From the IMG/VR virus record IMGVR_UViG_3300038361_000101, positions 1 to 51,840 of that record: a DNA stretch of 51,840 bases. One strand, 5' to 3'. Positions 2,340-24,655 of this stretch are shown here, piece after piece. Origin of the DNA: a virus. Made by a program: the position numbers and the translations under genes. Below the pieces are notes generated by a model. The model made no database searches. It saw nothing but the letters and a program-made list of their open reading frames with translations, and was not told where the DNA came from. Each line of letters starts with the position of its first letter. Positions within the stretch are counted from its first letter, which is position 1.

Positions 2340-2368
2340 TTGACAAACCCCAAAGTAAAAAATATTCT
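2340..2368 (+). promoter_or_regulatory. Sigma70-like promoter of structured RNA copy 1
   Basis: TTGACA at 2340-2345, 17-bp spacer, TATTCT at 2363-2368. It lies about 10 bp after the helicase stop and just upstream of the first copy of the three-way-junction RNA. The same architecture precedes the other four copies. Confidence 0.65.
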
Positions 2369-2374
2369 ATAGGT

Positions 2375-2482
2375 AATTGGAAATGAGCGAAAATCTAAAA
2401 TTTGAAATGCCTGAGAGTTCTTACATCGTGAGGTGTAGGAGAGTGTTCGCTCACTCCAATTGCTCTCAGGCATTCTTATTTT
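2375..2482 (+). ncRNA. Five-copy pseudoknotted three-way-junction RNA, copy 1
   Basis: P1 is a perfect 12-bp stem, 2406-2417 with 2463-2474. Inside it, P2 is an 8-bp hairpin (2420-2427 with 2432-2439) with a GTGA loop at 2428-2431. P3 is GAGTG at 2441-2445 with CACTC at 2452-2456. The leader TGAGCGAA at 2384-2391 is the exact reverse complement of the P3 loop region TTCGCTCA at 2446-2453, which would give a pseudoknot. A U-rich run and the ribosome binding site of the HNH gene at 2492 follow. The likely start (about 2375) is set by the promoter; the 3' end is approximate. No known RNA family was recognised by eye. Confidence 0.72.
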
Positions 2483-2491
2483 GGGGGAGTC

Positions 2492-3340
2492 ATGCGAAAA
2501 TTATTAAAAGGAACTCCTTTATGTGCATGTGGTTGTGGGAAAAGAGTTAGATGTAATAAAGGAAGTAAGCAATGGAACAAATTTATCAATGGGCACAATG
2601 ATAGAAGAGAAAAATTACCCGAAGTAGCCAGAGGCACTTTCGTACCTCTGTGTGCATGTGGTTGTGGCAAAAAAGTAAAATGGAGTGGGTTATATAAAAG
2701 ATGGAACAAATACATAAATTATCATGCAAATAAAGACCCTATATACAAAGCAAAATTAGCCATTTTATACAATAATCCAGAATGGCGAGAAGAACAAAGA
2801 AAAAATGCAATAGAACAATGGGAAAGTCCAGAACTCAGAAAACGAATGAAAGCTATCTGGGATGACCCAAAAAGAAATAAAGCTATTGGAAAAAGGTGGA
2901 ATAAATTTTGGTCTGATCCAAAAAATAAAGAAAATTTATCAAAGAAAATAAAAAAGAAGTACGAGGAAAACATTGATTACTATCTTAGATTAGTTGGAAA
3001 AAACAATCCCAATTGGTGTGAGAATTCAATCAGTCCTTACTGCGACATTTGGAAAACACCAGAATTCAAAGAAATGATTAGGGGGCGAGATAATTATAAA
3101 TGTCAAAATCCATCTTGCTGGAAAAAAATAATGAAAAATGAAAAACTACCAATACACCACATAAATTATAAAAAGGAAGAGTGTCATCCAATTAATTTAA
3201 TTACTCTATGTCGCTCTTGTCATGGAAGATCAAATGCAAATAGAAGCTATTGGAAAAAATACTACCAAACTCTTATGAGAGGTAAATTTAAGAAGAACGG
3301 ATTTGCAAAAAAACGTAAACTAATAAAAAGGAAGGTGTAA
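2492..3340 (+). CDS. Free-standing HNH homing endonuclease
   Basis: 282 residues. The N-terminus carries two copies of a short Cys module (CACGCGK at about 10-16 and again at about 52-58), a likely zinc-binding DNA-contact unit also seen in the HNH gene at 11133. The middle has repeated W-x-x-P-E/D-x-R segments resembling NUMOD3-type DNA-binding repeats. The C-terminal part has CQNPSC, then IHHINY, N, and CRSCHG, an HNH nuclease core with zinc cysteines. It sits directly downstream of structured RNA copy 1 and overlaps the next start codon by one base (TAATG), so it interrupts no gene. Such enzymes cut intron-less or cassette-less alleles to spread themselves. Confidence 0.85.
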   Translation: MRKLLKGTPLCACGCGKRVRCNKGSKQWNKFINGHNDRREKLPEVARGTFVPLCACGCGKKVKWSGLYKRWNKYINYHANKDPIYKAKLAILYNNPEWREEQRKNAIEQWESPELRKRMKAIWDDPKRNKAIGKRWNKFWSDPKNKENLSKKIKKKYEENIDYYLRLVGKNNPNWCENSISPYCDIWKTPEFKEMIRGRDNYKCQNPSCWKKIMKNEKLPIHHINYKKEECHPINLITLCRSCHGRSNANRSYWKKYYQTLMRGKFKKNGFAKKRKLIKRKV

Positions 3341-3546
3341 TGGAAAAAACATTTTACATGGTGGGTGCTGTCAAGGATAAACATCCATTAGAAGTTCTTG
3401 GTTCAAAGGTGGAACTGGATTTAATTTTTGCAGACGGTATGATGGGGTGTTGTCCTGTATTTGATAATCAAAAGGATGCTTTTAAATATTCAGATAATAC
3501 CTATCCAGTCTTTGCAATAACCCTTTACGACCCGAAAGGAGAATAA
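3340..3546 (+). CDS. Small phage protein of unknown function
   Basis: 68 residues, not recognised. The start ATG overlaps the TAA of the HNH gene, and the ribosome binding site GGAAGG lies inside that gene's 3' end. The sequence is mixed alpha/beta without cysteine pairs or membrane segments. It is followed one base later by another small gene, so it is part of the same operon. Confidence 0.6.
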   Translation: MEKTFYMVGAVKDKHPLEVLGSKVELDLIFADGMMGCCPVFDNQKDAFKYSDNTYPVFAITLYDPKGE

Positions 3547-3547
3547 A

Positions 3548-3748
3548 ATGAAAGGACCAAAAGAAAAACCAGAAGTGCAACTATCAGGTGAAGATGGAAA
3601 TGCTTTTTCTATACTAGGAGCGACTATTAAAGCATTGCGAAAAGCCGGTGCTGATGAGGAGTATATTGATAAATACCAAACTGAAGCTATGAGCGGAAAC
3701 TACGATGAACTTTTGCAAACAACTATGGGATACGTAAATGTTCTTTGA
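3548..3748 (+). CDS. Small conserved-looking protein of unknown function
   Basis: 66 residues. The C-terminal half (ALRKAGADEEYIDKYQTEAM, followed by SGNYDELL) is predicted helical and is of a type often seen in small uncharacterised phage and bacterial proteins. No catalytic motif. Ribosome binding site AAAGGAG is just upstream, at the end of the previous gene. Confidence 0.6.
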   Translation: MKGPKEKPEVQLSGEDGNAFSILGATIKALRKAGADEEYIDKYQTEAMSGNYDELLQTTMGYVNVL

Positions 3749-3762
3749 AAGGGGGACACATT

Positions 3763-4035
3763 ATGATGGGATACAAGATTATTACACAGTCTAACAATAA
3801 TCTCGCACTATGGAGTGACGCAGTTCAAGATATAATCTTGAAAGATAGTGCCAAAGATGAAATTCTAGCGTACCTTTTAAATTTTGAAAAAGAGAAAATT
3901 AGTGAATGGATTGACAAATCACTAGAGGAAAGCGAACCATCTGATTTCGTTAACGCCTTAAACACAATTATTGCGAATCAAACTGAAGCAGCTCCCACGG
4001 TAGTTTACTACCGTGTTAGAAATGTGATCCCATAA
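3763..4035 (+). CDS. Small phage protein of unknown function
   Basis: 90 residues from the ATG at 3763, chosen because AAAGGGGG at 3748-3755 is well placed; the frame also has an upstream TTG at 3745. Mostly helical and acidic, with no recognisable domain. A strong hairpin at 3996-4015 lies within the last codons. Confidence 0.6.
   Translation: MMGYKIITQSNNNLALWSDAVQDIILKDSAKDEILAYLLNFEKEKISEWIDKSLEESEPSDFVNALNTIIANQTEAAPTVVYYRVRNVIP
3996..4015 (+). other. Perfect 8-bp stem-loop near the end of a gene
   Basis: CACGGTAG (3996-4003) pairs with CTACCGTG (4008-4015) around a TTTA tetraloop. No U-run follows, so it is more likely an mRNA-stabilising or attenuating hairpin between the small genes and the primase than a classical terminator. 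Confidence 0.4.
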
Positions 4036-4095
4036 AATGATCTATACTAATTTACTAGGAAATAGGGAACCTTCAAAAATTTTCAGTGGTGAACT

Positions 4096-5007
4096 ATGGG
4101 AATGAAAAAGAAATCTCTGATCATAGATTTAGTAGACGTTGAGGAGTATCTCGATGCATTAGATATAGAATATTCTCACCCTGGATCAAAGAATACAGGT
4201 CAAAATTCTATCAGCATACAATGTCCTTGGTGTGATGATGGTTCTTACCATCTTGGTATAGAACTAGACAGGAAATTTTTCAACTGTTGGAAATGTACAA
4301 AGTCAGGAAGTTTAATCAAACTGGCGATGAAGTTAGAGGACTGCCCATATCATGCTGCTGTTGAGCATTTACAAGAATTTATGAGCATTGACCCTAGTAA
4401 AGTGGTGGACAACGATTCTCAGGTCACTCAGAGCGTCAGAGAGGTGGAATTAGTAGGGGTAAATACCCTGCTTGAACCACATCAAAAATATTTAGAGAGT
4501 AGAAACTTTGATCCTGAGTATATTTTTCAGAAATATTCTCTGAATTGTGTGGGTCCTATTGGTAGGTGGAGTCATAGTTTAATAATTCCCTACCTCAAAA
4601 ATGGTAGGGTAATTACATTCTGTGCTGCCGATATTACTAGAACATCTGACAAAAAATATAAATACCTTCCGAATGAACTATCAATTGTTCCCATAGGACA
4701 AACTCTTTACAACATAGACAGGGCAATTGATACAGCTTTGGTAGTAGAAGGTGCAACAGACACATGGAGAATGGGTGACGGTGCAGTTGGTCTTGGAAGA
4801 AAGAAGTACACAAGTTGGCAAGTAAAACGATTGGCCAAATTTAAAAGGGTTTTCATCATGTTAGATTCAGATGCCACAGAAATGGCAACTGATCTAGCTA
4901 ATGATGTAGGGATGTTTACAGAGGTTGTATTACTAGAGTTAGAATCAGGTGATCCAGCAGATTTATCAAACGATGATGTGAAAGAAATAAGAAAAGACAT
5001 ATTTTAA
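4096..5007 (+). CDS. DNA primase with zinc ribbon and Toprim domain
   Basis: 303 residues. An N-terminal CHC2-like zinc ribbon has CPWC at 43-46 and CWKC at 64-67. The C-terminal half is a Toprim domain: LVVEGATDTW with the catalytic glutamate at about 215, then MLDSD at about 252-256 as the metal-binding acidic motif. This is the layout of DnaG/phage primases that synthesise RNA primers for lagging-strand replication. It lacks a helicase domain, which fits the separate DnaB-like helicase at 16918. Shorter than bacterial DnaG because the helicase-interaction domain is missing. The ribosome binding site is weak (GGTGA at 4088-4092). Confidence 0.85.
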   Translation: MGMKKKSLIIDLVDVEEYLDALDIEYSHPGSKNTGQNSISIQCPWCDDGSYHLGIELDRKFFNCWKCTKSGSLIKLAMKLEDCPYHAAVEHLQEFMSIDPSKVVDNDSQVTQSVREVELVGVNTLLEPHQKYLESRNFDPEYIFQKYSLNCVGPIGRWSHSLIIPYLKNGRVITFCAADITRTSDKKYKYLPNELSIVPIGQTLYNIDRAIDTALVVEGATDTWRMGDGAVGLGRKKYTSWQVKRLAKFKRVFIMLDSDATEMATDLANDVGMFTEVVLLELESGDPADLSNDDVKEIRKDIF

Positions 5008-5016
5008 GGAGAAAAA

Positions 5017-5259
5017 ATGTTACTAAGTCAAGCCGTCGAAGAAGCGAAAATGATGTTTGTGGATCTTCACCCTTCAGAAACCGTTCTATTCAATATAGTA
5101 GATGTAGAGGAAAGAAAAACAGAATGTGAATGGATTGATCCATTTGAAGGTAAATTTATCATAAAAGGTATGAATGGATTTACTGATATGAATGAGTATT
5201 TAACAAAAGATCCTCACGTAGACAATATGCGAATAGCTCCTAGGGAAAAAGTAAAATGA
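5017..5259 (+). CDS. Small acidic protein of unknown function
   Basis: 80 residues, good AAGGAG site 9 nt after the primase stop, so probably co-expressed with the primase. No recognisable motif. Its stop overlaps the next start (ATGA). Confidence 0.6.
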   Translation: MLLSQAVEEAKMMFVDLHPSETVLFNIVDVEERKTECEWIDPFEGKFIIKGMNGFTDMNEYLTKDPHVDNMRIAPREKVK

Positions 5260-5627
5260 AATTCTATTCTAAAAGAGTATGTCCTGTTTGTAAAAAGATT
5301 GTCTCATGTGCAGGGGTTGCATGGGTCCAACACTCAAGAATGCATGTTAGAGAAGGGGTAATTGAAGAAATTTTAGATTGGGACAATCGAATAACTTTTA
5401 GACAACTAAAACCAATAAGAGGAAAATCTAGGAGAAGGACAGAAATGAAAAGAACAAAACAAGAAAGGGTCAAACAATATACGGAAGAAATGCAGAATTT
5501 ACAAAATAGCAGTGATCTTGAATCAACACATTGTATAGCCGATGATCTACTGTGTGATCTGTTACGAGAAATAGGATATGGAGAAGTTGTAAATGCTTTT
5601 GAGAATCTTGAAAAATGGTATGCATAA
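5256..5627 (+). CDS. Protein with single C2H2-like zinc finger
   Basis: 123 residues. The N-terminus has CPVCKK at about residues 8-13, then H and H spaced as in a C2H2 finger (WVQHSRMH), followed by a basic region and an acidic helical C-terminus. Such fingers in small phage proteins usually bind nucleic acid. The ATGA overlap with the preceding gene indicates translational coupling. Function unknown. Confidence 0.62.
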   Translation: MKFYSKRVCPVCKKIVSCAGVAWVQHSRMHVREGVIEEILDWDNRITFRQLKPIRGKSRRRTEMKRTKQERVKQYTEEMQNLQNSSDLESTHCIADDLLCDLLREIGYGEVVNAFENLEKWYA

Positions 5628-5640
5628 AAAGGAGAAATAA

Positions 5641-6048
5641 ATGAACACTTATGAAAAATGTTGTTCCATTAGGCACATGATTTTAACAAGGGCAGCAGAA
5701 GTTATAAACTATGATTGGGATGCTGAATTCTCAAAAAAGAATGTGAAAGAATTCCCTTATGATTTAAAGAACAAAATAAACACAGATGATGAGGACTTCT
5801 TCAACATTCAACCAGCAGAATTGACAAAAGAAGAAATGGATCAATTGAACTTTGGTAGATGGAGTGAGGGAGATCCTATGCGATTAATACCACTATGGTT
5901 ATTCCCATTTCTAGCAGAAAAAATAAAAACGAGGTGTATTGATGATAAAGAATATATAAAAAAATCAGAGATGGATAATGATCATCGTTTTGGGTATATG
6001 GCTTACGGTGTAATACCAAAGGAGAAAAATAAATGTTATCAAAAATAA
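5641..6048 (+). CDS. Protein of unknown function upstream of ligase
   Basis: 135 residues, preceded by AAAGGAG. Its 3' end overlaps the ligase start by 16 bases. The sequence shows an LTKEEMDQLNFGRWSEGD helix and a short hydrophobic stretch (LIPLWLFPFLAEKI) that is amphipathic rather than clearly membrane-spanning. Not recognised. Confidence 0.6.
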   Translation: MNTYEKCCSIRHMILTRAAEVINYDWDAEFSKKNVKEFPYDLKNKINTDDEDFFNIQPAELTKEEMDQLNFGRWSEGDPMRLIPLWLFPFLAEKIKTRCIDDKEYIKKSEMDNDHRFGYMAYGVIPKEKNKCYQK

Positions 6049-7853
6049 ATGAACTTGAAATTGAAATTGGCAAAGCCAATCAACTTTACTGGAGAAAACA
6101 AGAGCCTGAAATTTCAGACATTGAATACGATAATTTAGTCAGAAAATTAACTAAATTAGATCCAGATAATCCTATGTTATTAGATATTCATGCACCTGTA
6201 TCAACCAAAGGGTTGAAGGTGACACATAAAGTTCCAATGCTATCACTAAACAAGGTGTACACCATACCGGAGCTACTTGCATGGTGCGCTAAAGTAGCTA
6301 GGGGACCGCATGAACAATTCCTTATCCAGCCAAAGTACGATGGTTGCTCCGCTAACTATGAAGATGGAATACTGTCAACTAGAGGGGATGGTGAAGTTGG
6401 AGAAAATATTACCGACAAACTTCCACTCATCAAAATGCAAATTTCTAAATTCAGAGACAACAAGACAAGAGGGGAGATAATCTTTCGCAAATCAGTCTTT
6501 GAAAAGTATAAAACCATTCTCAAGAAAAGGGATGGTACACCTTATTCTAATGCCAGAAATGCTTGTGCCGGTATGCTCAACAAAGATGATCTCCCAGTGA
6601 AAGAAGCAATCTTAGAACTAATACCATTCGAAATGGAAACCACAAAATTATCTTTGAACAATATGGGAAGAGTAAACTTTGAAGAATACATAGAACAGGT
6701 GAAGGGACTTGACTACCCTGCTGATGGTCTAGTTATTAAACTAGCTGATGAAGAATACAAAGAATCATTAGGGTACACAAGCCACCATTCTAGGGGTGAG
6801 ATGGCCCTAAAGTTTGCCAATGATACAGGAACAACAAAACTATTAGGGGTAACTTGGTCGTGCGGTAAGGAAGTGATTACCCCTATCGGTAATGTGGAAC
6901 CTGTAGAAATAGGCGGGGTCACTATTAAAAACGTGTCACTTCATAATTGGAATTTTATAGAAGAACATACCATTCATATAGGGGATACACTAGTCATAGA
7001 AAGAGCAGGAGATGTTATTCCACATGTAGTGTCTTGCAAATATGATATGGCAGTAGATGAAGAACCACAAGCAATAGAAATTGATGAATGTCCTGAATGT
7101 CATTCACCTGTAACTTACAAAGATCCCAATATTTACTGTACTAATAGCAATTGTGCTGGCAAACTATTAAATAAACTATATGACAGTGTAACCAGAATTG
7201 GAATTGAAAGAATTGGTAAACCCACTATCAGAAATATGATAGACATACTAGGAGTAGATAATCTTATTGATATATTTAATCTCACAAAAAGTGATCTACT
7301 CAGACTACCTAAATTTGGAGACAAAAAAGCTAGTAACACCTTGAATGAGATTCATAAGGTAAATGATGAGGGGGTACATGAATGGCAGATCCTTGCTGCT
7401 ATGAATATTCCTGGTATCGGTAGAACACTCAGCAAAACTCTATGTGAAGAATTTGGATTAAATGGATTAATGGAATTATGTTTACGTTCCAATGCAAAAC
7501 ATAGGTTGATTGCTATTGAAGGTATCGAAGAAAAAAGAGCCACTGATATAGTGGTGGGAGTATTGGAAAATATTAGATATATTACAGCTTTATGGGATAT
7601 ACTGACATTGAAAATGTATGCTGTTGTTGAGGATGAACCATTACCAACAGTCTGTTTTTCTGGTAAATTCCCTGAACAAAAATCGGTCTATTATGAAAAG
7701 TTAAAAGGAAAATATGAAATAGCTAAATCTGTAACAAAGTCCCTTGATATTTTAGTTGTAGCGGATAAAAACTCTAAAAGTTCCAAATGTAAAAAAGCTA
7801 AAAAATTAGGTATCAAAATCATATCAATCCAAGAAATTATGGGGGAAATATAA
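6033..7853 (+). CDS. ligA: NAD-dependent DNA ligase
   Basis: 606 residues. Adenylation motif KYDG at 101-104 with the catalytic lysine K101, preceded by the Ia-type N-terminal domain. An OB-fold region, the four-cysteine zinc finger (CPEC with a downstream CTNSNC) at about 350-372, helix-hairpin-helix repeats (RLPKFGDKKA, NIPGIGRTLS, AIEGIEEKRA) and a C-terminal BRCT domain (VCFSGKFPEQ onward) follow in the LigA order. It seals nicks using NAD+. It is slightly shorter than bacterial LigA (~670) but has every domain, unlike many trimmed phage ligases. Confidence 0.95.
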   Translation: MLSKINELEIEIGKANQLYWRKQEPEISDIEYDNLVRKLTKLDPDNPMLLDIHAPVSTKGLKVTHKVPMLSLNKVYTIPELLAWCAKVARGPHEQFLIQPKYDGCSANYEDGILSTRGDGEVGENITDKLPLIKMQISKFRDNKTRGEIIFRKSVFEKYKTILKKRDGTPYSNARNACAGMLNKDDLPVKEAILELIPFEMETTKLSLNNMGRVNFEEYIEQVKGLDYPADGLVIKLADEEYKESLGYTSHHSRGEMALKFANDTGTTKLLGVTWSCGKEVITPIGNVEPVEIGGVTIKNVSLHNWNFIEEHTIHIGDTLVIERAGDVIPHVVSCKYDMAVDEEPQAIEIDECPECHSPVTYKDPNIYCTNSNCAGKLLNKLYDSVTRIGIERIGKPTIRNMIDILGVDNLIDIFNLTKSDLLRLPKFGDKKASNTLNEIHKVNDEGVHEWQILAAMNIPGIGRTLSKTLCEEFGLNGLMELCLRSNAKHRLIAIEGIEEKRATDIVVGVLENIRYITALWDILTLKMYAVVEDEPLPTVCFSGKFPEQKSVYYEKLKGKYEIAKSVTKSLDILVVADKNSKSSKCKKAKKLGIKIISIQEIMGEI

Positions 7854-8224
7854 TGGAAAAAGAGTCTGTAGAATTAGTGTTACAACATTTAGATAAACTT
7901 GGAGAAAAATTAGGGGTGGGTGTTGAAAGAATATGGCCTTGGTTTGTACATCAAGTGTATATTGAATCCATAGTATCCTTATTTCTTATGCTATTTAGTA
8001 TGGGTCTGTTTGTTAGTTTATCTATTTTTGTAGCTAAACATTGGAAAAAACGAGAAGGTAAGTATTCAATTGATGATTCTAGCCATGAACCACCGTGGGT
8101 TATAGGTTTAGTATTACTTGGAATAGTAACTCTTATTTGCACGATTGCATTTTTTACTGTTGGATTCAACTTCTTAAATCCTGAATATCACGCTTTCAAA
8201 AATATAATAGCAACTGTAAAATAA
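7853..8224 (+). CDS. Membrane protein with two transmembrane segments
   Basis: 123 residues. Two hydrophobic segments are visible at about 40-60 (IVSLFLMLFSMGLFVSLSIF) and 82-104 (VIGLVLLGIVTLICTIAFFT), joined by a basic loop HWKKREGK, so both ends are probably on the same side. Start codon overlaps the ligase stop. Function unknown. Confidence 0.65.
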   Translation: MEKESVELVLQHLDKLGEKLGVGVERIWPWFVHQVYIESIVSLFLMLFSMGLFVSLSIFVAKHWKKREGKYSIDDSSHEPPWVIGLVLLGIVTLICTIAFFTVGFNFLNPEYHAFKNIIATVK

Positions 8225-8240
8225 TGGTATAAAGGTAAAC

Positions 8241-8357
8241 GCCCGGACCTCAGAGGGCTTTGCTCATCAGTCCTAGCGCACCAAAACCTGCTCAGAACCG
8301 GGGAAATTCTCATGATTCCATATAGTAAGCGGGTCAAGATGAGCTTCACTTTTAATA
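8241..8357 (+). ncRNA. Candidate structured RNA or structured leader
   Basis: The 146 bp between 8224 and 8371 hold no gene and are distinctly richer in G and C than the flanks. Visible pairings: GCCC 8241-8244 with GGGC 8255-8258; GCTCATC 8262-8268 with GATGAGC 8338-8344 (7 bp closing a 69-nt interior); nested CCTGCT 8287-8292 with AGCGGG 8328-8333 (one G-U); and GGAA with TTCC further inside. A U-rich stretch TTCACTTTTAAT follows the closing stem, then the ribosome binding site of the 48-residue gene at 8371. It has no tRNA T-arm or group I core that could be recognised. Ends are approximate. Confidence 0.45.
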
Positions 8358-8370
8358 CAAAGGAGAGAAA

Positions 8371-8517
8371 ATGGAAAATGAAAAACAAGGCTATGGAGAA
8401 TGTGAAGATTGTGTTTGGTATCATGACCCTGGCGGGTGTAACGTAGAAAGAGATTCTGATATTTGTCTCCTGAATAAAAGATTGAAAAACAAAGAAACCG
8501 AAATTGTGGAGGATTAA
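8371..8517 (+). CDS. Tiny Cys-rich protein (48 aa), likely zinc ribbon
   Basis: Begins MENEKQGYGECEDCVWYHDP and contains four cysteines (C-x2-C, then two single cysteines about 14 and 10 residues later), consistent with one zinc site. AAAGGAGAG lies 6 nt upstream of the ATG at 8371. It is the first of a run of very small genes between the candidate RNA and the glycosyltransferase. Function unknown. Confidence 0.6.
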   Translation: MENEKQGYGECEDCVWYHDPGGCNVERDSDICLLNKRLKNKETEIVED

Positions 8518-8518
8518 A

Positions 8519-8686
8519 ATGACTTGGAATGAATTCAAAAAATGTATTGATGATCAGATAGAAGATATGAACATTGACAAAGATTTGGAGCTGGAGTACA
8601 TCGACATCTCCTATCCTTGCCTTGATCATCCTTCTTGTCAACCTACTGTCTATGCAGATGAAAATGGTATAGCTATCCAACCGTAA
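8519..8686 (+). CDS. Tiny acidic protein (55 aa)
   Basis: Start at ATG 8519, placed 6 nt after GGAGG at 8508-8512, which lies in the end of the preceding gene. Begins MTWNEFKKCIDDQIEDMNID. Not recognised; the helix-then-beta pattern resembles the next gene, suggesting a shared small fold. Confidence 0.55.
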   Translation: MTWNEFKKCIDDQIEDMNIDKDLELEYIDISYPCLDHPSCQPTVYADENGIAIQP

Positions 8687-8695
8687 GGGAGAGAT

Positions 8696-8887
8696 ATGAA
8701 TTGGGATAAAGTAGAAAAATTAATAATAGAAATTGCGGATGAAGCAAAGATTGATCTCAATGAGGTGGGGTCAATTACAATTCATAAAGATGGACCAACA
8801 CAAAGCATTCACATCGCCGCTAAAGTATTTTTCACACACGAAAAGTACGGTGAATTAAGTGATATGTATATCGTAGAATCTAATTGA
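8696..8887 (+). CDS. Tiny protein of unknown function (63 aa)
   Basis: Begins MNWDKVEKLIIEIADEAKID; a helical N-terminus followed by beta-like segments. Ribosome binding site GGGAGAG. It is the last of the small genes before the repeated ACCGGAGGA spacers begin. Confidence 0.58.
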   Translation: MNWDKVEKLIIEIADEAKIDLNEVGSITIHKDGPTQSIHIAAKVFFTHEKYGELSDMYIVESN

Positions 8888-8905
8888 ACCACCGGAGGAG
8901 GAAGG

Positions 8906-10947: not shown

Positions 10948-10949
10948 TC

Positions 10950-11000
10950 ATGAACGGAAGAAAGATCAAAATAAATCTTTACTTTCCCAAAGGGTTTTAA
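10950..11000 (+). CDS. Possible 16-residue micro-ORF or gene remnant
   Basis: MNGRKIKINLYFPKGF with a good AAGGAG 6 nt upstream of the ATG. It overlaps the promoter of structured RNA copy 2. It may be a leader peptide, or the surviving 5' end of a gene truncated when the RNA-HNH cassette arrived. Confidence 0.3.
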   Translation: MNGRKIKINLYFPKGF

Positions 11001-11006
11001 TACAAT
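10978..11006 (+). promoter_or_regulatory. Sigma70-like promoter of structured RNA copy 2
   Basis: TTTACT at 10978-10983, 17-bp spacer, TACAAT at 11001-11006. The sequence following the -10 box (TTTATTGTCGAACTAATG) resembles that of copy 5, so the whole promoter-leader unit is related. Confidence 0.58.
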
Positions 11007-11012
11007 GTTTAT

Positions 11013-11120
11013 TGTCGAACTAATGATGCCAAAGAGAAATTCAATAAAGCTTGAGAATCTCTGCATCGTGAGGTGCAGGGGGGTTATCATTAACTCCGAC
11101 AATTCTCAGGCTTTTCTTTT
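11013..11120 (+). ncRNA. Five-copy pseudoknotted three-way-junction RNA, copy 2
   Basis: P1: 11047-11058 with 11102-11113 (AAGCTTGAGAAT against ATTCTCAGGCTT, one G-T). P2: 11060-11067 with 11072-11079 around GTGA at 11068-11071. P3: GGGTTA 11081-11086 with TAACTC 11091-11096. Leader TAATGATG 11021-11028 pairs with TATCATTA 11085-11092 in P3 (one G-T). Compared with copy 1, P2 replaces an A-T pair by G-C, and the leader and P3 change together. A CTTTTCTTTTT run and GGAG follow, then the HNH gene. Confidence 0.72.
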
Positions 11121-11132
11121 TGGAGATTTGCT

Positions 11133-14689: not shown

Positions 14690-14718
14690 TTGACTTTCAT
14701 ATTGTCATTTGTTATTCT
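14690..14718 (+). promoter_or_regulatory. Sigma70-like promoter of structured RNA copy 3
   Basis: TTGACT at 14690-14695, 17-bp spacer, TATTCT at 14713-14718, just after the exported-protein gene. Same -10 hexamer as copy 1. Confidence 0.62.
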
Positions 14719-14724: not shown

Positions 14725-14893
14725 GTCTGAAAAAATCACAATGTTAAAAGAGTATAAATATGAAATCAAATGAATCAAATCAACTAAATAGCGCCAGAGA
14801 ATCTTATATCGTGAGGTATAGGGTAAGTACTCTTCACACCCCTCCACGTGTGATTGTGAGCTTACAGACAATTCTCTGGCGCTATTTTTATTT
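14725..14893 (+). ncRNA. Five-copy pseudoknotted three-way-junction RNA, copy 3
   Basis: P1 is a perfect 17-bp stem, 14786-14802 with 14871-14887. P2: 14803-14810 with 14815-14822 around GTGA. P3 is enlarged: GTAAG 14823-14827 with CTTAC 14861-14865, and TCACAC 14834-14839 with GTGTGA 14848-14853. Leader TCACAAT 14736-14742 is complementary to ATTGTGA 14853-14859. A U-rich ATTTTTATTTAT tail and GGGGG follow. Unlike the other four copies, the next gene is not an endonuclease, which shows the RNA is not merely part of the HNH genes. Confidence 0.7.
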
Positions 14894-14905
14894 ATAGGGG
14901 GACTG

Positions 14906-15184
14906 ATGGGAACTAGTAAAGAGACATCTGACTCTGCCAAAGATTTAGAAAAGTTGATAGTAAAATATCTCAATGCATTATCACATGAGGTTGGTAAAAT
15001 CTTTGGTGGAGATGGATTATCAGTACTAAATCCAATACTAGCACATTTATCTATAGAGAAAATGATAGAAACCAGAGGTTATTTTGAAACACTCCAGATG
15101 ATAAAAACTATTTACACAAAAGTTGAAGGGGATGCTATCAGACAAATGGCTCAGCAAGAAAGTAAATCTGCTACTAAACATTAA
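14906..15184 (+). CDS. Small helical protein downstream of structured RNA copy 3
   Basis: 92 residues, mostly helical, beginning MGTSKETSDSAKDLEKLIVK. No motif recognised and no resemblance to the HNH genes that follow the other RNA copies. Ribosome binding site GGGGG is 9 nt upstream. It lies directly before the replication gene at 15217. Confidence 0.6.
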   Translation: MGTSKETSDSAKDLEKLIVKYLNALSHEVGKIFGGDGLSVLNPILAHLSIEKMIETRGYFETLQMIKTIYTKVEGDAIRQMAQQESKSATKH

Positions 15185-16827: not shown

Positions 16828-16917
16828 CACCTGGATAGCTACTCTCGTAGAAGTTAGACCGGCAGAAATCGATTTTAATAGCAGAGAATAGACCTACTTT
16901 TGACTTGAGGGGTAAAC

Positions 16918-18432: not shown

Positions 18433-18445
18433 ATTGGAGGAGAAA

Positions 18446-19114
18446 ATGAAACTGTATTCAATATTTACCAGCATTAATGGAGAAGTAGGAGCATGTCAAG
18501 GTATGTTTACCACTTTTATACGGTTTGCAGGGTGCATGAAAACCCCTTGTAAATGGTGTGACACTACCTATGCACTTGATCCTGATTCTGGTAAAGAGGT
18601 AACACCTGAACAAGTAACAAATCAAGTGGAATTAACTAATAAGGGTTGGCCACATGTTACTATTACAGGTGGGGAACCACTGATGCAGAAAAAGGAATTT
18701 GAATTTTTAGTAAGATTACTTTGGGAAAAGGATCACATAATTTCTGTAGAAACTAATGGTGCATACAATATTTTTGATACTACTGTAGCTCCTATGGTTA
18801 AACATTGGGTTGTAGACTATAAGACTCCTTCATCTGGTATCTCTCATATGATGAAAGATGCTATGTTCCCATTGTTAGAAGAGAGTGATTGGATAAAATT
18901 TGTTATATCAGATCGTCAAGATTATAATTTCTCTAAAGAAAAAATTCATTCTTTCATAGAAGATGGTTGTCAAGCTAACATAGCTTTTTCACCAATGAGT
19001 GATGGGAAAGTATCTCCTAGTCAATTGATGCGATGGCTTATCCAAGATAAACTATATCATGTTATCCTCAATCTTCAACTTCACAAACTCGGGAAGTTGG
19101 ACGAACCTAATTAA
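18446..19114 (+). CDS. queE: 7-carboxy-7-deazaguanine synthase (QueE), radical SAM
   Basis: 222 residues from the ATG at 18446; an in-frame TTG at 18434 exists but lies within the GGAGGAG ribosome binding site. The family start (IFTSINGEVGACQGMFTTFI), the cluster cysteines in GCMKTPCKWCDT and TGGEPL identify QueE, which rearranges 6-carboxytetrahydropterin to CDG. The cysteine spacing is C-x4-C-x2-C, one residue longer than the classical C-x3-C-x2-C; QueE is known to tolerate variation here. It is the first gene of the deazaguanine cluster and lies 13 bp after the helicase. Confidence 0.9.
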   Translation: MKLYSIFTSINGEVGACQGMFTTFIRFAGCMKTPCKWCDTTYALDPDSGKEVTPEQVTNQVELTNKGWPHVTITGGEPLMQKKEFEFLVRLLWEKDHIISVETNGAYNIFDTTVAPMVKHWVVDYKTPSSGISHMMKDAMFPLLEESDWIKFVISDRQDYNFSKEKIHSFIEDGCQANIAFSPMSDGKVSPSQLMRWLIQDKLYHVILNLQLHKLGKLDEPN

Positions 19115-19117
19115 AAA

Positions 19118-19182
19118 AATCGTGATGAAAATACGTTTTAAGCAAGATTTTTCTTGCTTTTTTAATTTCAATGTATTATATT
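19118..19182 (+). promoter_or_regulatory. Promoter with upstream CGTGATGAAA box, plus terminator-like hairpin
   Basis: TTGCTT at 19154-19159, 17-bp spacer, TATATT at 19177-19182. AATCGTGATGAAA at 19118-19130 lies 33 bp upstream of the -35, as in the promoter at 32679-32743. AAGCAAG 19140-19146 pairs with CTTGCTT 19153-19159 and is followed by a T-run, so the same DNA can act as a rho-independent terminator for QueE transcripts. Confidence 0.55.
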
Positions 19183-19238
19183 GAAAAACAATAATTCATG
19201 GGGTTTTTAAATTAAAACACATTACAAAGGAGAAAGAG

Positions 19239-19943
19239 ATGAAAGCACTAAAGGATGTAGATTACAATGGGTTGAAACAAGCGTGTAAAAGTCTTAATGA
19301 AGCAAAGATTTTGGAAGAGGACATTAAATTTATAGGGGTTAAAAAAGAAAAACTTCTTGAAACTTTTAATGCCGCAATTGAGACTATTATAGAAACCACT
19401 CCTGAAGATGTTCAAGAGTCAATTCCTGATTTCGTAATTGATTTTTATAATGATCTAATTTCTGATGAAGTAACAGAAGAGCCTGAAGAAGATAAACTTA
19501 CAGATGAAACTCAACCTGTGCCTGAAGATGAAGTACAAGCTGAAGAAACTGTAGTAGAGCAAACTGAGCCTGAGCCTGAAGTTAAAAAGAAGAGAAAAGG
19601 TAAAGATTATGATGCACCGGAACCCATGAAAAAGAAATTGGGACAAGCGGGTGTCAAAATTGGTACTAAGAGATGGATTTCTTTTGAAGAGTATTCAAGT
19701 TCGCTCAGAACCGATGGGCCTGAAACACCTACCAATTACCTTGACCTTATTTTTCTTGATGGGGCTACCCTGCAAGAGGCTGTTGATCTTTTTAAAGCAT
19801 TCTTGGAAGAGAATAACATGAACCATAAAGGGTACAGATCAGTTGGATTGATTAACGATCACATTAAAGCTAGGGCAGAACGGTCTGGTTTTATCTTTTC
19901 AAAAGATGGTGACACTTTCACTCTTGTTGGAGCAATCGAATGA
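19239..19943 (+). CDS. Acidic two-domain protein of unknown function
   Basis: 234 residues. A helical N-terminal ~85 residues, an acidic Glu/Pro/Val-rich linker (about 86-125, with EPEVKKKRKGK at its end), and a C-terminal globular part that ends with a possible winged segment (NHKGYRSVGLINDHIKARAE). Good AAAGGAG. Overlaps FolE by 4 bases. Not recognised; its position between QueE and FolE does not by itself imply a role in base modification. Confidence 0.6.
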   Translation: MKALKDVDYNGLKQACKSLNEAKILEEDIKFIGVKKEKLLETFNAAIETIIETTPEDVQESIPDFVIDFYNDLISDEVTEEPEEDKLTDETQPVPEDEVQAEETVVEQTEPEPEVKKKRKGKDYDAPEPMKKKLGQAGVKIGTKRWISFEEYSSSLRTDGPETPTNYLDLIFLDGATLQEAVDLFKAFLEENNMNHKGYRSVGLINDHIKARAERSGFIFSKDGDTFTLVGAIE

Positions 19944-20521
19944 ACCAAGAATTAGCAGAGAAACATATCTATTCTCTGTTAACTGAAGGCTTGGGGTTGG
20001 ATTTATCTGACCCCAACCTTACAGATACTCCAAAGAGAATAGCCAAGATGTATTGTAAAGAGTTCTTTTCAACCATTGGAGAGAATTTCACAGATTTTAA
20101 ATCATTTCCTAACGATAGCAACTATGATCAAATAATAATGTTTGATCATATCCATTTTACCTCAGTATGTTCACATCATTTCTTACCGTTCACTGGCTTG
20201 GGTTGGGTGCTTTATATACCTGGAAAGAAACTAATAGGTGCGTCTAAAGCAGCCAGATTGTTGACACACTACTCAAAACGTCCACAATTGCAAGAGAAAT
20301 TAGCTCATCAAGTAGCTAGACATTTTATGAATGCTGTTCAACCTCAAGGAGTTATGGTGTTGTTACAAGCTGTACACGGCTGCATGAAGTGCAGGGGGGT
20401 TGAACAATATGCTGGTGCTGGTATGGGAACAAGCATTGTTAAGGGTTGCTTTCTTGACAATTCTGTTAAAAGTGAAGCCTTGGAAATGATCAAAATCTCA
20501 ATAAGATTAAAGGAAAAATGA
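19940..20521 (+). CDS. folE: GTP cyclohydrolase I
   Basis: 193 residues, normal for FolE. Motifs: TDTPKRIAKMYCKEF near 28-42, SVCSHHFLPFTG with the zinc cysteine and catalytic histidines at about 76-87, GASKAARLL, and CMKCRGVEQ with the second zinc cysteine. It converts GTP to 7,8-dihydroneopterin triphosphate, the first step to preQ0. Phage deazaguanine clusters typically carry it. ATGA overlap with the preceding gene. Confidence 0.93.
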   Translation: MNQELAEKHIYSLLTEGLGLDLSDPNLTDTPKRIAKMYCKEFFSTIGENFTDFKSFPNDSNYDQIIMFDHIHFTSVCSHHFLPFTGLGWVLYIPGKKLIGASKAARLLTHYSKRPQLQEKLAHQVARHFMNAVQPQGVMVLLQAVHGCMKCRGVEQYAGAGMGTSIVKGCFLDNSVKSEALEMIKISIRLKEK

Positions 20522-20529
20522 CAATTTAG

Positions 20530-20559
20530 TTGACTTCCCAAAAAGAAAGATAATACAAT
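20530..20559 (+). promoter_or_regulatory. Sigma70-like promoter of structured RNA copy 4
   Basis: TTGACT at 20530-20535, 18-bp spacer, TACAAT at 20554-20559. The region is nearly identical to the promoter at 24510-24539 (two differences in 31 bases), indicating duplication of the whole cassette. Confidence 0.65.
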
Positions 20560-20565
20560 GCAAAT

Positions 20566-20676
20566 GCTGAAGATGATTAAACCAAAAAGGTTATACGAAA
20601 ACCCCAAGAATTCCTACATCGTGAGGTGTAGGAGAGCCTTTAATCAGCTCCAGCAATTCTTGGGGTTTCTTTTTGG
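20566..20676 (+). ncRNA. Five-copy pseudoknotted three-way-junction RNA, copy 4
   Basis: P1: perfect 14 bp, AAACCCCAAGAATT 20599-20612 with 20655-20668. P2: CCTACATC 20613-20620 with GGTGTAGG 20625-20632 around GTGA. P3: GAGC 20634-20637 with GCTC 20647-20650. Leader TGATTAAA 20574-20581 is the exact complement of TTTAATCA 20639-20646 in the P3 loop. P1 has an entirely different sequence from copies 1, 2 and 5, yet pairs fully. The tail CTTTTTGGAGG merges into the HNH ribosome binding site. Confidence 0.74.
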
Positions 20677-20685
20677 AGGTAGACA

Positions 20686-21219
20686 ATGAAAAAATTAACA
20701 CAGGAAAGATTGAAAGAGGTGCTACATTATAATCCTGATACAGGAATTTTTACATGGAAAGTAATGGTTGGGAAAAGAGCAAAGGTTGGTACTATACCAG
20801 GATATCATCATTGTGGTTACATTTATATGGGAGTAGACAATCATGGGTATCCTGCTCATCATTTAGCTTTTCTTTACATGGAAGGTTACTTACCAGAACA
20901 TGATATTGACCACATTAATAGAATTAGAGATGATAATCGTTGGGACAATTTACGACATGTATCAAGATCGTGCAATTTACGAAATACATCTGTAAGAAGT
21001 ACCAATAAATCGGGTGTTACAGGTGTGGGTTGGGATAAAGGAAAAAAGAAATGGGGAAGTTGTATCGGAGTTAATTGTAAAGTAAAACATCTTGGTGGTT
21101 TTGATAACTTAAAAGAAGCAGTACAAGCACGTTGGGAAGCTGAAGTTAAATATGATTATCCAAATTGTAATAGTACCTCTAGTGCATTTCAGTTTTTACA
21201 AAAGGAGTCAAATTGTTAA
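20686..21219 (+). CDS. HNH endonuclease with AP2-type domain
   Basis: 177 residues, a close paralogue of the genes at 11133 and 24666. HNH core IDHINRIRDDNRWDNLRHVS at about 85-104, then an AP2-like SGVTGVGWDKGKKKWGS. It is inserted between folE and the first radical SAM gene without disrupting either. Its 3' end contains AAAAGGAG, which serves the TTG start of the next gene at 21213. Confidence 0.9.
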   Translation: MKKLTQERLKEVLHYNPDTGIFTWKVMVGKRAKVGTIPGYHHCGYIYMGVDNHGYPAHHLAFLYMEGYLPEHDIDHINRIRDDNRWDNLRHVSRSCNLRNTSVRSTNKSGVTGVGWDKGKKKWGSCIGVNCKVKHLGGFDNLKEAVQARWEAEVKYDYPNCNSTSSAFQFLQKESNC

Positions 21220-22196
21220 ACGAACTTGTCAAATGTGAGATATTGTGGACTAGAAAATGTCCCTTGAAGTGTAGTTTTTGCAACATGCCTAACGACACTA
21301 AGAGATGTTCTACCAAGAAAATGATTCAAGGCTTAACTAATTTAAAAAATCTAGGGTGTAAGTTCGCCGCTATTTATGGTGCATCCCCACTTTATGATTT
21401 TAAAGGTCTACCAGAATATGTAAAAGCTGCTGAAGATATGGGAATTCTCACCACCATTATTGTTGACGGTATTGGTGGTGAGAAGGACAAAGAAAAGATT
21501 AAACAATTATATGATGCAGGGTTGCGTTCTCTGACAGTGAGCCAAGACTTTGTACCCTATGACAAATCATCAAAAAGAAAATCACAAGCAGGATTAAAAT
21601 TACTCGATTGGTTTTATAAACTTCCAGACATCAGAGATATAGAAATTGTTACCACAGTAACCAATCAAAATTATAAGGAAATAGAATCCACTATCTATGA
21701 TTTCTTAGAGAAGTACTGGCCAAAGTTGTGGTTTTCCTTTGATTTTCTCCATCTAGATAGAGGTAATCCTGGTAGTAAATGCAAAGGTATGAGCAAAGAA
21801 TTACTTCTCACAGATTCACAGGTTAATTCTTTTGCCTATAATCTGATTGATCAAATGCAAATTGAAAGTAGGATACATCAATCAAAAGATTTCCTGATTA
21901 AGTGCGTAAATGATCCCAAGTTTGTTACTGAGTTTAGATGGAAATGTGCTCCTAATGATGTATTTCCGAGTTTTCTAACCATTGACGCTGACGGCACGGT
22001 TTTACCGTGTGATGATTTTCATACTGACCGTCACTGGAAAATATGGAACTTCGGTGAAAAAGAGTTTGCAGAATTTAAAGAATTCTATTCCAAAGAAATT
22101 GAAACTAAATGTAAGGGGTGTTGCTGGAGCACTCACCATGATGCAGCACTAATTAAAAGAGGCAAGAAAGGGTTTAATTCATATGTACACAAATAA
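21213..22196 (+). CDS. Radical SAM protein 1 of deazaguanine cluster
   Basis: 327 residues, starting at TTG 21213 inside the end of the HNH gene (AAGGAG at 21202-21207 fixes the start). CPLKCSFC at 16-23 is the C-x3-C-x2-C 4Fe-4S motif of radical SAM enzymes. The C-terminus has LPCDDF and KCKGCCW, a SPASM/twitch-like extra cysteine set that usually binds one more cluster. The substrate is unknown. It overlaps the second radical SAM gene and sits between FolE and Gat-QueC, so a role in modifying the 7-deazaguanine base is inferred; a peptide or other small molecule substrate cannot be excluded. Confidence 0.8.
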   Translation: MLNELVKCEILWTRKCPLKCSFCNMPNDTKRCSTKKMIQGLTNLKNLGCKFAAIYGASPLYDFKGLPEYVKAAEDMGILTTIIVDGIGGEKDKEKIKQLYDAGLRSLTVSQDFVPYDKSSKRKSQAGLKLLDWFYKLPDIRDIEIVTTVTNQNYKEIESTIYDFLEKYWPKLWFSFDFLHLDRGNPGSKCKGMSKELLLTDSQVNSFAYNLIDQMQIESRIHQSKDFLIKCVNDPKFVTEFRWKCAPNDVFPSFLTIDADGTVLPCDDFHTDRHWKIWNFGEKEFAEFKEFYSKEIETKCKGCCWSTHHDAALIKRGKKGFNSYVHK

Positions 22197-23145
22197 AAAG
22201 TTCTCATTTGTTACGTTGTTCATCACTCGGGAGTGCAATTTGAGATGTAGCTACTGTAATCTCCCAAATAATAACATGAACACCATGTCAGGTGAAGGAT
22301 GGATTAAAGTAATAGATAGTCTATTGCCATATACGGAATTTTTTTCTTTGATAGGAGGAGAACCAACACTCCATCCCGACTTTCCTATGGTAATAGATTA
22401 TCTCAATACAGTTGGTGCTAATTACACGACAGTAACAAACGGTACAGCTCCCCATGATTACTACAAACATCTAATTGAAGATATTGGAATAAAATCTCTT
22501 GGTGTTTCAATGGATGAATTATACTCTGATGATAGTAATAAAAAACCAGAGACTATAAAAAGTGTATTAGGAAAAAATTTAATACGCTTCATAAGAAATG
22601 AAACCATTTATGATGGGGAGCTTATTATAAGTTCTATCATAAAAGATACTATGTCTTGTGGTGCGATATTAGACTTTGCAGCTATCCATGAATGCAAAGT
22701 AGCACTCTCTTTACTGCAATCTAGTACAGATCCTAATCAACTTAATTCTAATAATCCTAAGAATGAACCTTTCAATGAAAAGGACATCATTGATGTTTTA
22801 AAGTGGTTGGTACATTCCAAACCAGAGGAGGTCCTTGACCCACAAGAATATTACCTTGCCATGTTGTATAGAATTATGTTAAAGAAAGGTAAGTGGCATT
22901 GTAGTAAAGGTTTAACTCCTGCTGTAAATTGTAATGGTGATCTTTGGGGATGTTTTGATTTTATGGGTGATGTTAATCCTGTAATAGGTAGACCGAGAAT
23001 TAATTTACTTAACGAAGATTTTGAGCCAGAGAAACATTTTGAGGCAGTGATGTACTCTTGTGTATATTGCCCGGGATGTCTGTGGAATTGTCCATTCGTT
23101 AGCGAATTGATAGCAGATGGAATCGTTGAAATGAAATTTTCATAG
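22183..23145 (+). CDS. Radical SAM protein 2 of deazaguanine cluster
   Basis: 320 residues. CNLRCSYC at 18-25 is the radical SAM cluster motif, and LIGGEPTLHPDF near 57-68 is the SAM-binding GGE motif. The C-terminal region (CSKG, CNGDLWGCFD and CVYCPGCLWNC) is rich in cysteine in a SPASM-like arrangement for auxiliary clusters. It differs substantially from radical SAM protein 1, so the two probably do distinct steps. A 14-base overlap with the upstream gene implies coupled translation. Confidence 0.82.
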   Translation: MYTNKKFSFVTLFITRECNLRCSYCNLPNNNMNTMSGEGWIKVIDSLLPYTEFFSLIGGEPTLHPDFPMVIDYLNTVGANYTTVTNGTAPHDYYKHLIEDIGIKSLGVSMDELYSDDSNKKPETIKSVLGKNLIRFIRNETIYDGELIISSIIKDTMSCGAILDFAAIHECKVALSLLQSSTDPNQLNSNNPKNEPFNEKDIIDVLKWLVHSKPEEVLDPQEYYLAMLYRIMLKKGKWHCSKGLTPAVNCNGDLWGCFDFMGDVNPVIGRPRINLLNEDFEPEKHFEAVMYSCVYCPGCLWNCPFVSELIADGIVEMKFS

Positions 23146-23153
23146 GAGATATT

Positions 23154-24506
23154 ATGTGTGGAATTTATGCCGCTATAGCTTTTTCAAAATATGGGTATAA
23201 ACATATCCAAATAATGAAAAATCAATTAATAGGAGGTGCTAAAAAACGTGGTAGAGATGGGGATGGTATTTTTGAGTTTGATAATGGTTACATTGGTGCT
23301 TCAAGGGCAAAACCTCTCCCCGAAGGTGGAATTATAGAAATTCCATTACAAGATAATGGCTTACACCTTGTATTCAATGGCACACTATCTAATGATGTAG
23401 AATTAACGACGGAATATAAGTTAATACCAGGGGACGTAGACACATCTGTAGCAATACAACTATGGAATAAGATAGGAGGATTGGAAACGTGTAATAAATT
23501 AATTGGGGGATTTGCTTTTAGTGTTTTCAATGAAAATGATCTATCCCTAACTGTAGCTAAAAATTTTAAAACCCTTTGGTATTCCCATGACCCTAAACAT
23601 TTCTTTATACTTTCTTCAGAAAAAGAACCTTTACTTACTGATAATAATATTTTTTCAACGTTTTACCCAAAACGATTTCCTACCAATACTCTTTTGAACA
23701 TATCTCATACAGGATTCATGCAATATGAAAAAATAAGTAGAAAATATTGGTCTTATACTCCAGATTTAGATAGTAACAAAGCGGTAGTTATTACTTCTGG
23801 TGGAATTGACTCAATAACTTCTGCTTATATAGCTGCTAAACACTGGAAATATAATACTACTTTAATAAATTTTGACTACAAACAAATGGCTAGTATAAAA
23901 GAGAAGGAAGCTGTAGAATATGTATCTAAACAACTTAATGTCAATGTCGAATTCATTAATTTAAAAAAATTAGGGGAATGGGGACATAGCCCATTAACTG
24001 ATTGTAATATACCTCTTCCTCTAGGTAAACAATCTGCGGAATCAACTCTATGTTGGACACCAGGACGTAATATGTTAATGCTTGCATATGCTGCCGCTTA
24101 TGCTGAAGCTCATGGTGCTAAATGGTTAGTATTTGGTAACAACCTTGAGGAAGAAGCATCTGGTTATTCGGATAATGATCTTGATTTTGTTTATTTGTAT
24201 AACCTTTTATTAGAATATGGAACATTAAAAGGAGTTCAAATAAAGAGAGCCTTGGCACGATTAATGAAACCTGAAATTCTCCAAGTGGGAAATTATCTAG
24301 GAGTTGATTATTCTAAAACATGGAGTTGTGATTTAGGTGGGAAATCACCATGCGGTAGCTGCGGGTGCTGTACAACAAGGAGACACGCCTTTATGGTAGC
24401 GGGATTATTAGACGAACAAACTTATCAAAATGATTTGAATGACCATTATACTTCTGTAGAACCAAAGCAATTTGACATTCAAAAGTTACTATCTCTTGTA
24501 GAATAA
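23154..24506 (+). CDS. Gat-QueC: glutamine amidotransferase fused to QueC
   Basis: 450 residues. The N-terminus MCGIYAAIAF exposes Cys2, the nucleophile of class II glutamine amidotransferases (about 1-195). The C-terminal half is QueC: PP-loop SGGIDS at 215-220, and zinc cysteines CGSCGCC near 400. Gat-QueC fusions in other phages make 7-amido-7-deazaguanine (archaeosine base) from preQ0 or CDG, with glutamine as the nitrogen source, giving deoxyarchaeosine in phage DNA. Together with a separate QueC at 26171 this implies both preQ0 and its amidated form are made. Confidence 0.88.
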   Translation: MCGIYAAIAFSKYGYKHIQIMKNQLIGGAKKRGRDGDGIFEFDNGYIGASRAKPLPEGGIIEIPLQDNGLHLVFNGTLSNDVELTTEYKLIPGDVDTSVAIQLWNKIGGLETCNKLIGGFAFSVFNENDLSLTVAKNFKTLWYSHDPKHFFILSSEKEPLLTDNNIFSTFYPKRFPTNTLLNISHTGFMQYEKISRKYWSYTPDLDSNKAVVITSGGIDSITSAYIAAKHWKYNTTLINFDYKQMASIKEKEAVEYVSKQLNVNVEFINLKKLGEWGHSPLTDCNIPLPLGKQSAESTLCWTPGRNMLMLAYAAAYAEAHGAKWLVFGNNLEEEASGYSDNDLDFVYLYNLLLEYGTLKGVQIKRALARLMKPEILQVGNYLGVDYSKTWSCDLGGKSPCGSCGCCTTRRHAFMVAGLLDEQTYQNDLNDHYTSVEPKQFDIQKLLSLVE

Positions 24507-24509
24507 TTA

Positions 24510-24539
24510 TTGACTTCTCAAAAAGAAAGATAATATAAT
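24510..24539 (+). promoter_or_regulatory. Sigma70-like promoter of structured RNA copy 5
   Basis: TTGACT at 24510-24515, 18-bp spacer, TATAAT at 24534-24539, a few bases after the Gat-QueC stop. Confidence 0.68.
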
Positions 24540-24545
24540 GTTTAC

Positions 24546-24655
24546 TGTCGAATTAGTGCTACTAAAAAGAAAGTACATAAAGCCTGAGAATTCTTGCATT
24601 GTGAGGTGCAGGAGAGTTAGCACTAACTCCGACAATTCTCAGGCTTTTCTTTTTG
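24546..24655 (+). ncRNA. Five-copy pseudoknotted three-way-junction RNA, copy 5
   Basis: P1: perfect 14 bp, AAAGCCTGAGAATT 24579-24592 with 24634-24647. P2: 24593-24600 with 24605-24612 around GTGA at 24601-24604. P3: GAGTTA 24614-24619 with TAACTC 24624-24629. Leader TTAGTGCTA 24553-24561 is the exact 9-nt complement of TAGCACTAA 24618-24626. The distance from leader to P3 (56 nt) matches copies 1, 2 and 4. The TTTTCTTTTT tail leads into GGAGG of the HNH gene. Confidence 0.75.

Follow-up and report, generated by a model that had tools for sequence, protein, structure and literature searches.

We have analyzed a family of structured RNA elements that occurs five times in a 51,840-base virus record (IMG/VR IMGVR_UViG_3300038361_000101), here called the window. 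The elements, E1 to E5, all lie on the + strand, and quite probably each is a compact, autoregulatory RNA of the C4/CI antisense type that controls the gene behind it. C4 and CI antisense RNAs are the phage immunity switches of antirepressor and P4 replication operons; C4 is freed from its precursor by RNase P and represses in trans. Relatives of the window elements were sought by DNA pattern, by protein search and with two covariance models, R1 (9 copies) and R2 (18 copies). There are now 28 copies, five in the window and 23 elsewhere; 18 make up the aligned set and the 10 recovered later a held-out set. The best reading of these sequences is an undescribed family of C4-like antisense RNAs or attenuators, close to the small-RNA or attenuator option offered by a preliminary description of the window.

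That description reported five elements, each with a promoter, three stems (P1, P2 and P3), a U-tract and a leader complementary to the P3 loop. All of these features are present on the + strand where they had been placed, and the leader/P3-loop pairs have the reported letters in all five copies, give or take one end base. The single leader helix of the earlier account is thus present, but a second helix had been overlooked. The leader holds two boxes, a1 and b1; b1 pairs with b' in the P3 loop and a1 pairs with a', which lies between P3 and the 3' strand of P1 (P1') and adjoins the latter. The a1:a' helix is directly 5' of the reported helix in the leader and directly 3' of P3 in the RNA. In E1, for example, the leader AATTGGA-AA-TGAGCGAA faces TTCGCTCA-C-TCCAATT in the RNA. 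Two ordered Watson-Crick helices were found in 12 of the 12 copies first tested, in 18 of 18, and then in all 10 later copies.

The complementarity is specific to each copy. Summed two-box pairing over the 18 aligned copies is 250 for own partners versus 114 +/- 18 for swapped partners (maximum 188 in 50,000), and over the 10 held-out copies it is 133 versus 75.5 +/- 12.4 (0 of 50,000 permutations). Each of the 28 copies pairs better with its own leader than with block-shuffled leaders (p <= 0.04), and within the window own pairs score 12-15 and cross pairs at most 11. Because own pairing is so far above swapped pairing, chance is excluded for the leader/antisense complementarity. The observation is real and well beyond chance, and the co-varying leader/loop pair first described for the window extends to both sets of copies.

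The cores of E1 to E5 have folding energies of -32 to -46 kcal/mol, 5.7 to 7.3 standard deviations below shuffles. Paired cells amount to 96% when the 18 copies are aligned by fitting to the covariance model. The helices covary as had been claimed, with changes on both sides in 23 of the 26 base pairs of P1, P2 and P3. There are 93 double-change cells in this alignment versus 22.4 +/- 4.1 when shuffled (0 of 500 shuffles), and the count drops to 10-14 with slid structures. For 9 copies aligned with MAFFT, and a structure assigned by hand from that alignment, the result agrees (35 double changes versus 9.7 +/- 2.5). The P2 loop, earlier called an invariant GTGA, is indeed GTGA in the window copies, but other copies have GTAA, GCGA or GCAA on quite different stem sequences; it is therefore a GNRA loop. 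A run of U follows P1 directly in every copy, so that P1 should double as an intrinsic terminator. At the other end, the distance from the -10 box to the start of a1 is 4-7 nt in almost every copy with a well-scoring promoter, and a1-b1 should therefore be the first bases (5' end) of the transcript. The features of the five window copies are as follows.

E1, 2340..2368, +: sigma70-like promoter, TTGACA-17-TATTCT, 10/12 consensus bases, equalled by 1.3% of random windows
E1, 2375..2391, +: leader, a1 2375-2381 (AATTGGA), b1 2384-2391 (TGAGCGAA); 7+8 Watson-Crick pairs with a' and b'
E1, 2404..2481, +: RNA with P1, P2 2420-2439 (GTGA loop), P3 with b' 2446-2453, a' 2455-2461, P1' and U-tract; covariance model 84-88 bits, fold z -7.3
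2492..3340, +: HNH-type homing endonuclease gene 3' of E1; PHROG HNH endonuclease, Pfam HNH below cut-off
E2, 10978..11006, +: promoter-like site, TTTACT-17-TACAAT, 9/12
E2, 11011..11027, +: leader, a1 11011-11017 (ATTGTCG), b1 11021-11027 (TAATGAT); 7+7 pairs
E2, 11044..11121, +: RNA with P1, P2, P3 with b' 11086-11092, a' 11097-11103, P1' and U-tract; 87-91 bits
11133..11837, +: homing endonuclease gene with HNH_3 and AP2 domains 3' of E2; Pfam HNH_3 5e-12, AP2 2e-7
E3, 14690..14718, +: promoter-like site, TTGACT-17-TATTCT, 9/12
E3, 14725..14740, +: leader, a1 14725-14729 (GTCTG), b1 14734-14740 (AATCACA); 5+7 pairs
E3, 14786..14890, +: RNA with enlarged P3, b' 14849-14855, a' 14865-14869; 53 bits held out, 64 in R2
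14906..15184, +: open reading frame (ORF) of 92 amino acids 3' of E3, with no significant family
15217: replication-initiator-like gene after the 92-residue ORF; phrog_270/391
E4, 20530..20559, +: promoter-like site, TTGACT-18-TACAAT, 10/12
E4, 20565..20581, +: leader, a1 20565-20569 (TGCTG), b1 20574-20581 (TGATTAAA); 5+8 pairs
E4, 20596..20675, +: RNA, b' 20639-20646, a' 20651-20655; 78-83 bits
20686..21219, +: HNH_3 homing endonuclease gene 3' of E4; Pfam HNH_3 6e-13
E5, 24510..24539, +: promoter-like site, TTGACT-18-TATAAT, 11/12, equalled by 0 of 300 random windows
E5, 24546..24561, +: leader, a1 24546-24550 (TGTCG), b1 24553-24561 (TTAGTGCTA); 5+9 pairs
E5, 24577..24654, +: RNA, b' 24618-24626, a' 24630-24634; 87-92 bits
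24666..25196, +: HNH_3 homing endonuclease gene 3' of E5; Pfam HNH_3 2e-12

E3 also has an extra hairpin within its enlarged P3 and an additional leader complementarity, AAGAGTA/TACTCTT. The core pattern ATYGTGAGGTRYAGG has exactly five matches in the 51.8-kb record, none on the opposite strand and none with the reversed-pattern control.

E1, E2, E4 and E5 directly precede HNH-type homing endonuclease genes; E3 does not. Most of the 28 copies are followed by homing-endonuclease-type genes, with HNH/HNH_3/NUMOD, GIY-YIG (L069, L179) or DUF559/MTES_1575-type (L185, L192) domains. Antirepressor-type genes follow three copies (AntA in L021, Bro-N in L047 and pRha in L052), a serine recombinase follows L013, a helix-turn-helix protein follows L181 and the 92-residue ORF follows E3, with nothing clear behind L182. 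The genes of L080, L166, L167, L169, L180 and L186 were assigned by sequence reading or by similarity to other copies rather than from a significant Pfam domain. The RNA is usually absent at homologues of the homing endonucleases elsewhere and is therefore not an obligate part of a homing endonuclease gene. An N-terminal motif, CxCGCG...V...WNKFIxGH, which is often repeated, is shared by homing endonucleases with differing catalytic domains (HNH, DUF559-like), many of which lie behind the RNA; it occurs in the gene at window 2492-3340 and in L075, L080, L082, L166, L167, L185 and L189. Open frames pass through the RNA into the downstream gene, or overlap it by ATGA, in L075, L080, L069, L166, L047, L013, E2 and E4.

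The placement of the leader differs with the gene behind it. In compact copies b1 is mostly 7-18 nt from P1, across an A-rich linker, while in copies ahead of antirepressor-type genes a1 starts 68-93 nt before P1; in L021 and L052 a terminator-like hairpin, read by eye, lies between leader and RNA. The three antirepressor-linked copies repeat b1 over the ribosome-binding site (L021 TATTCAGGAGG, L047 CCAAAGGAGG, L052 TTCTAGGAGG; the background of a 7-nt recurrence is 0.8%). Downstream second targets are not above background in the homing-endonuclease copies, except possibly in L166 and L179, and the window copies have no b2 repeat at the ribosome-binding site. Identical complementarity would allow pairing in cis, as a pseudoknot, or in trans, as antisense, and in the antirepressor-linked relatives it would also allow a second target overlapping the ribosome-binding site.

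This anatomy is closely matched by that of C4 RNA. The Rfam C4 consensus (RF01695) consists of a 17-bp outer stem around a tetraloop hairpin, a hairpin with a 12-nt loop and a junction, the same topology as in the new RNAs, in which the second hairpin carries the antisense loop b'. In the phage P1 annotation, C4 is flanked by a1 and b1 on its upstream side and by a2 and b2 on its downstream side, ahead of icd-ant. A two-box scan with a wider box gap allowed finds TTGACAG/GTTAGTG for the C4 of phage P1 and GTGAGAA/TTCACAGG for the CI of P4; for these upstream targets, a' and b' have the order and placement seen in the new RNAs, and a' abuts the outer stem. An upstream a1-b1 matching junction and loop is shared by 28 of 28 new copies, a downstream target at the ribosome-binding site by L021, L047 and L052 (as b2), and an antirepressor-type gene by the same three relatives, whereas most copies, including four of the five in the window, precede homing endonucleases and have no second target there. 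The new RNAs also differ from C4 in having a GNRA rather than a UUCG-type loop, a U-tract directly after the outer stem, and a1-b1 at the expected 5' end. The CI RNA of P4 pairs with seqA upstream and seqC downstream, leading to termination and repression (PMC4825925), and C4 blocks translation at the ribosome-binding site of the antirepressor (PMC12197685). P4 CI, with seqA, seqB and seqC and a match to Rfam C4, shares with the new RNAs an antisense loop whose complement is a leader site further upstream; it precedes the P4 replication genes, as E3 precedes a replication-initiator-like gene. Two further features of P4, a second target and a distinct terminator-like hairpin 3' of seqA, are lacking in compact copies. 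Read by eye, phages P1 and P4 both appear to resemble L021 and L052 in having a terminator-like hairpin between their leader and the RNA.

Two other systems are similar in part. IsrK/anrP of Gifsy-1 is a short terminator-ended RNA whose read-through yields antirepressor mRNA (PMC4825925), an arrangement like that proposed here but with a different fold; the IsrK model (RF01394) has no match in the window or the relatives scanned, with P4 above and phage P1 below its gathering score. The T4 homing endonucleases I-TevI, segB and mobE are restrained by hairpins that sequester the ribosome-binding site, and mobE has an intrinsic terminator early in the gene (PMC2988022). There too an RNA structure precedes a phage homing endonuclease gene, but it acts by sequestration and no antisense boxes have been described for it.

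The claim that the RNA belongs to no known family therefore needs dividing. By sequence and covariance-model membership it stands: no Rfam class matches at E1 to E5 at gathering score or E<=10, and the c4-a1b1 leader model (RF03163) has no match in the window or the relatives scanned. What had been overlooked is the likeness to C4/CI in architecture, target layout and the gene context of relatives. The suggested put-like antiterminator is unsupported; the close analogue found is the C4/CI antisense RNA, in a comparison that had a put model or sequence outside its range. By anatomy the new RNAs are C4-like and should work like C4 RNA, although they fall outside the C4 family as defined.

We propose that a sigma70-type promoter would start transcription at, or just 5' of, a1-b1, and that the RNA would fold so that the long P1 encloses the GNRA hairpin P2 and P3, with the loop b' and the following junction a' complementary to a1-b1. 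P1 and the U-tract would terminate most transcripts to give an RNA of roughly 105 nt, and read-through alone would yield mRNA, with a Shine-Dalgarno site immediately 3' of the U-tract. Base pairing between b'a' and a1-b1, within the same molecule or between accumulated RNA and a new transcript, would set the level of read-through or translation. Homing endonucleases, antirepressors or recombinases would then be on at first entry and off once the RNA is present, and the differing a and b sequences would prevent cross-regulation among copies in one phage. In compact copies the downstream gene would be held down through the upstream site alone, and P1 would serve as the terminator. A broader proposal, which we put forward tentatively as somewhat short of probable, is that an RNA immunity module is attached to phage homing endonucleases from several unrelated nuclease families. 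The module would be transferable and specific to each copy: a C4-type switch pared down to about 130 bp (promoter, 5'-terminal target, antisense and terminator) that silences an established endonuclease, with private pairing codes insulating the copies.

Several points weigh against control by a C4-like antisense RNA. The proposal is built on sequence features, namely promoter-like sites, box positions, fold, covariation, copy-specific complementarity, the U-tract and gene context, from which we infer transcription start and end, the sign of regulation, and pairing in cis or in trans. Homing-endonuclease copies are mostly without a downstream second target, and L047 has no clear promoter. RF01695 (gathering score 45 bits) finds nothing at E<=10 in the window and six relatives scanned, while scoring 69 bits on phage P1 and 75 bits on P4, and R1 and R2 have no match in P1 or P4; since the models fail to match each other's RNAs, common descent with C4 is not established. 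Unless it is processed, an RNA that retains its own a1-b1 could pair internally and so have no activity in trans. In compact copies the distance between b1 and P1 is nearly constant, which would suit a purely cis device. We regard such a device as rather unlikely: the leader would pair with its own P3 loop and junction as a pseudoknot stacked on P1, acting as terminator, attenuator or antiterminator with no trans RNA. The short A-rich linker fits this, as does the abutment of a' on P1', which would let a1:a' stack on P1, but the distant leaders of the antirepressor-linked copies, two of them with a hairpin between, and the target repeated over their ribosome-binding sites do not, and the C4 and CI precedents act in trans (PMC4825925, PMC12197685).

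It is improbable that the elements are translation-coupled attenuators, in which ribosomes on a leader ORF through the RNA would open P1 and a1-b1 pairing would block the start of that ORF. An open frame crosses 16 of the 18 cores, and in several copies it is in register with the gene or overlaps it by a terminal ATGA (E2, E4). The count is a modest excess over the 10.7 expected by chance before shared ancestry is allowed for; the frame is closed in L007 and L021, and the start codon often precedes the point at which transcription should begin. A stand-alone stable small RNA, its 5' end guarded by pairing and its targets elsewhere in phage or host, would make the neighbouring genes passengers. 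The promoter and terminator of its own and the lack of an obvious gene behind L182 agree with this, but we consider it very improbable, as in each copy the antisense boxes fit that copy's leader and vary from one copy to the next, and nearly all copies adjoin the ribosome-binding site of a gene. Finally, a structured RNA beside HNH genes recalls the guide RNAs of IscB (omega-RNA, HEARO). This reading is rejected as hardly credible because the partner proteins are unrelated, including GIY-YIG and DUF559-like nucleases, a serine recombinase and antirepressor-type proteins; in addition, self-complementarity accounts for the variable parts, most related HNH genes lack such an RNA, and HEARO/omega-RNA has no Rfam match in the window.

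Of the 23 further copies that the pattern, protein and covariance-model searches yielded, all keeping the two-box pairing, one is in a Mucispirillum genome contig and the rest are in IMG/VR phage records. R1 recovered E3 (53 bits), L047 (45) and L013 (42) from outside its training set. Besides the five copies of the window, records G010 and G083 have four each and G015, G081 and G085 two each. The phages of L007, L016 and L055 are otherwise unrelated in DNA to the window and share with it the element alone (76-134 nt), while that of L015, 99.9% identical over 14 kb, is nearly the same phage as the window. L182 and L183 (records G084 and G085) have identical a and b boxes with an HNH gene behind L183 alone, and L182 may be a copy whose gene was lost. 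A 39-bit match at L006:3368-3454 (-) lies inside an apparent ORF and has P1, P2, a U-tract and 5+7 two-box complementarity; it is a possible divergent member. The contig of the serine-recombinase-linked copy also holds an int-alpA RNA (L013:1662-1726, -; 48 bits, above gathering). Apart from this and a tRNA region, sub-threshold Rfam matches away from the elements are chance-like. That region, window 40601-40895, has one Rfam tRNA (58.8 bits) uncalled by ARAGORN, with a sub-threshold YrlA-like and tmRNA-like match shortly before it, and is possibly a degenerate or unusual tRNA cluster.

No convincing copy came from BLASTN searches of named phages and plasmids with the element cores, and genomes from the same class as the L047 host returned the original L047 match alone. 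A scan for GNRA variants with a fixed P2 stem gave only terminator-like or chance matches; true GNRA variants carry different P2 stems. Pattern matches dropped after reading their flanks were L008, L009, L011, L012, L017 and L018 (intron-like sequence by eye), L014, L019, L020, L044-L046, L049-L051, L053 and L054, and the terminator-like or chance matches L048 and L060-L063. The family is not described in the parts consulted of the open-licence literature on C4 RNAs and homing endonucleases or on structured RNAs near HNH genes, which is weak evidence of novelty.

As far as Rfam and the literature searched show, this is a new C4-like antisense or attenuator RNA recruited to homing endonucleases, and it probably keeps the homing endonuclease genes behind it in check. 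A C4/CI-like architecture that Rfam does not recognise is found on homing endonucleases, which are selfish DNA-cutting genes, and on other genes; one phage may have as many as five copies, each with a code of its own, and since there is a pairing code the claim can be tested directly by compensatory mutation. If true, homing endonuclease control would have an extra RNA layer beyond the T4 hairpins, immunity RNAs would move between genes as modules, and single phages would contain naturally orthogonal RNA attenuators or regulators.

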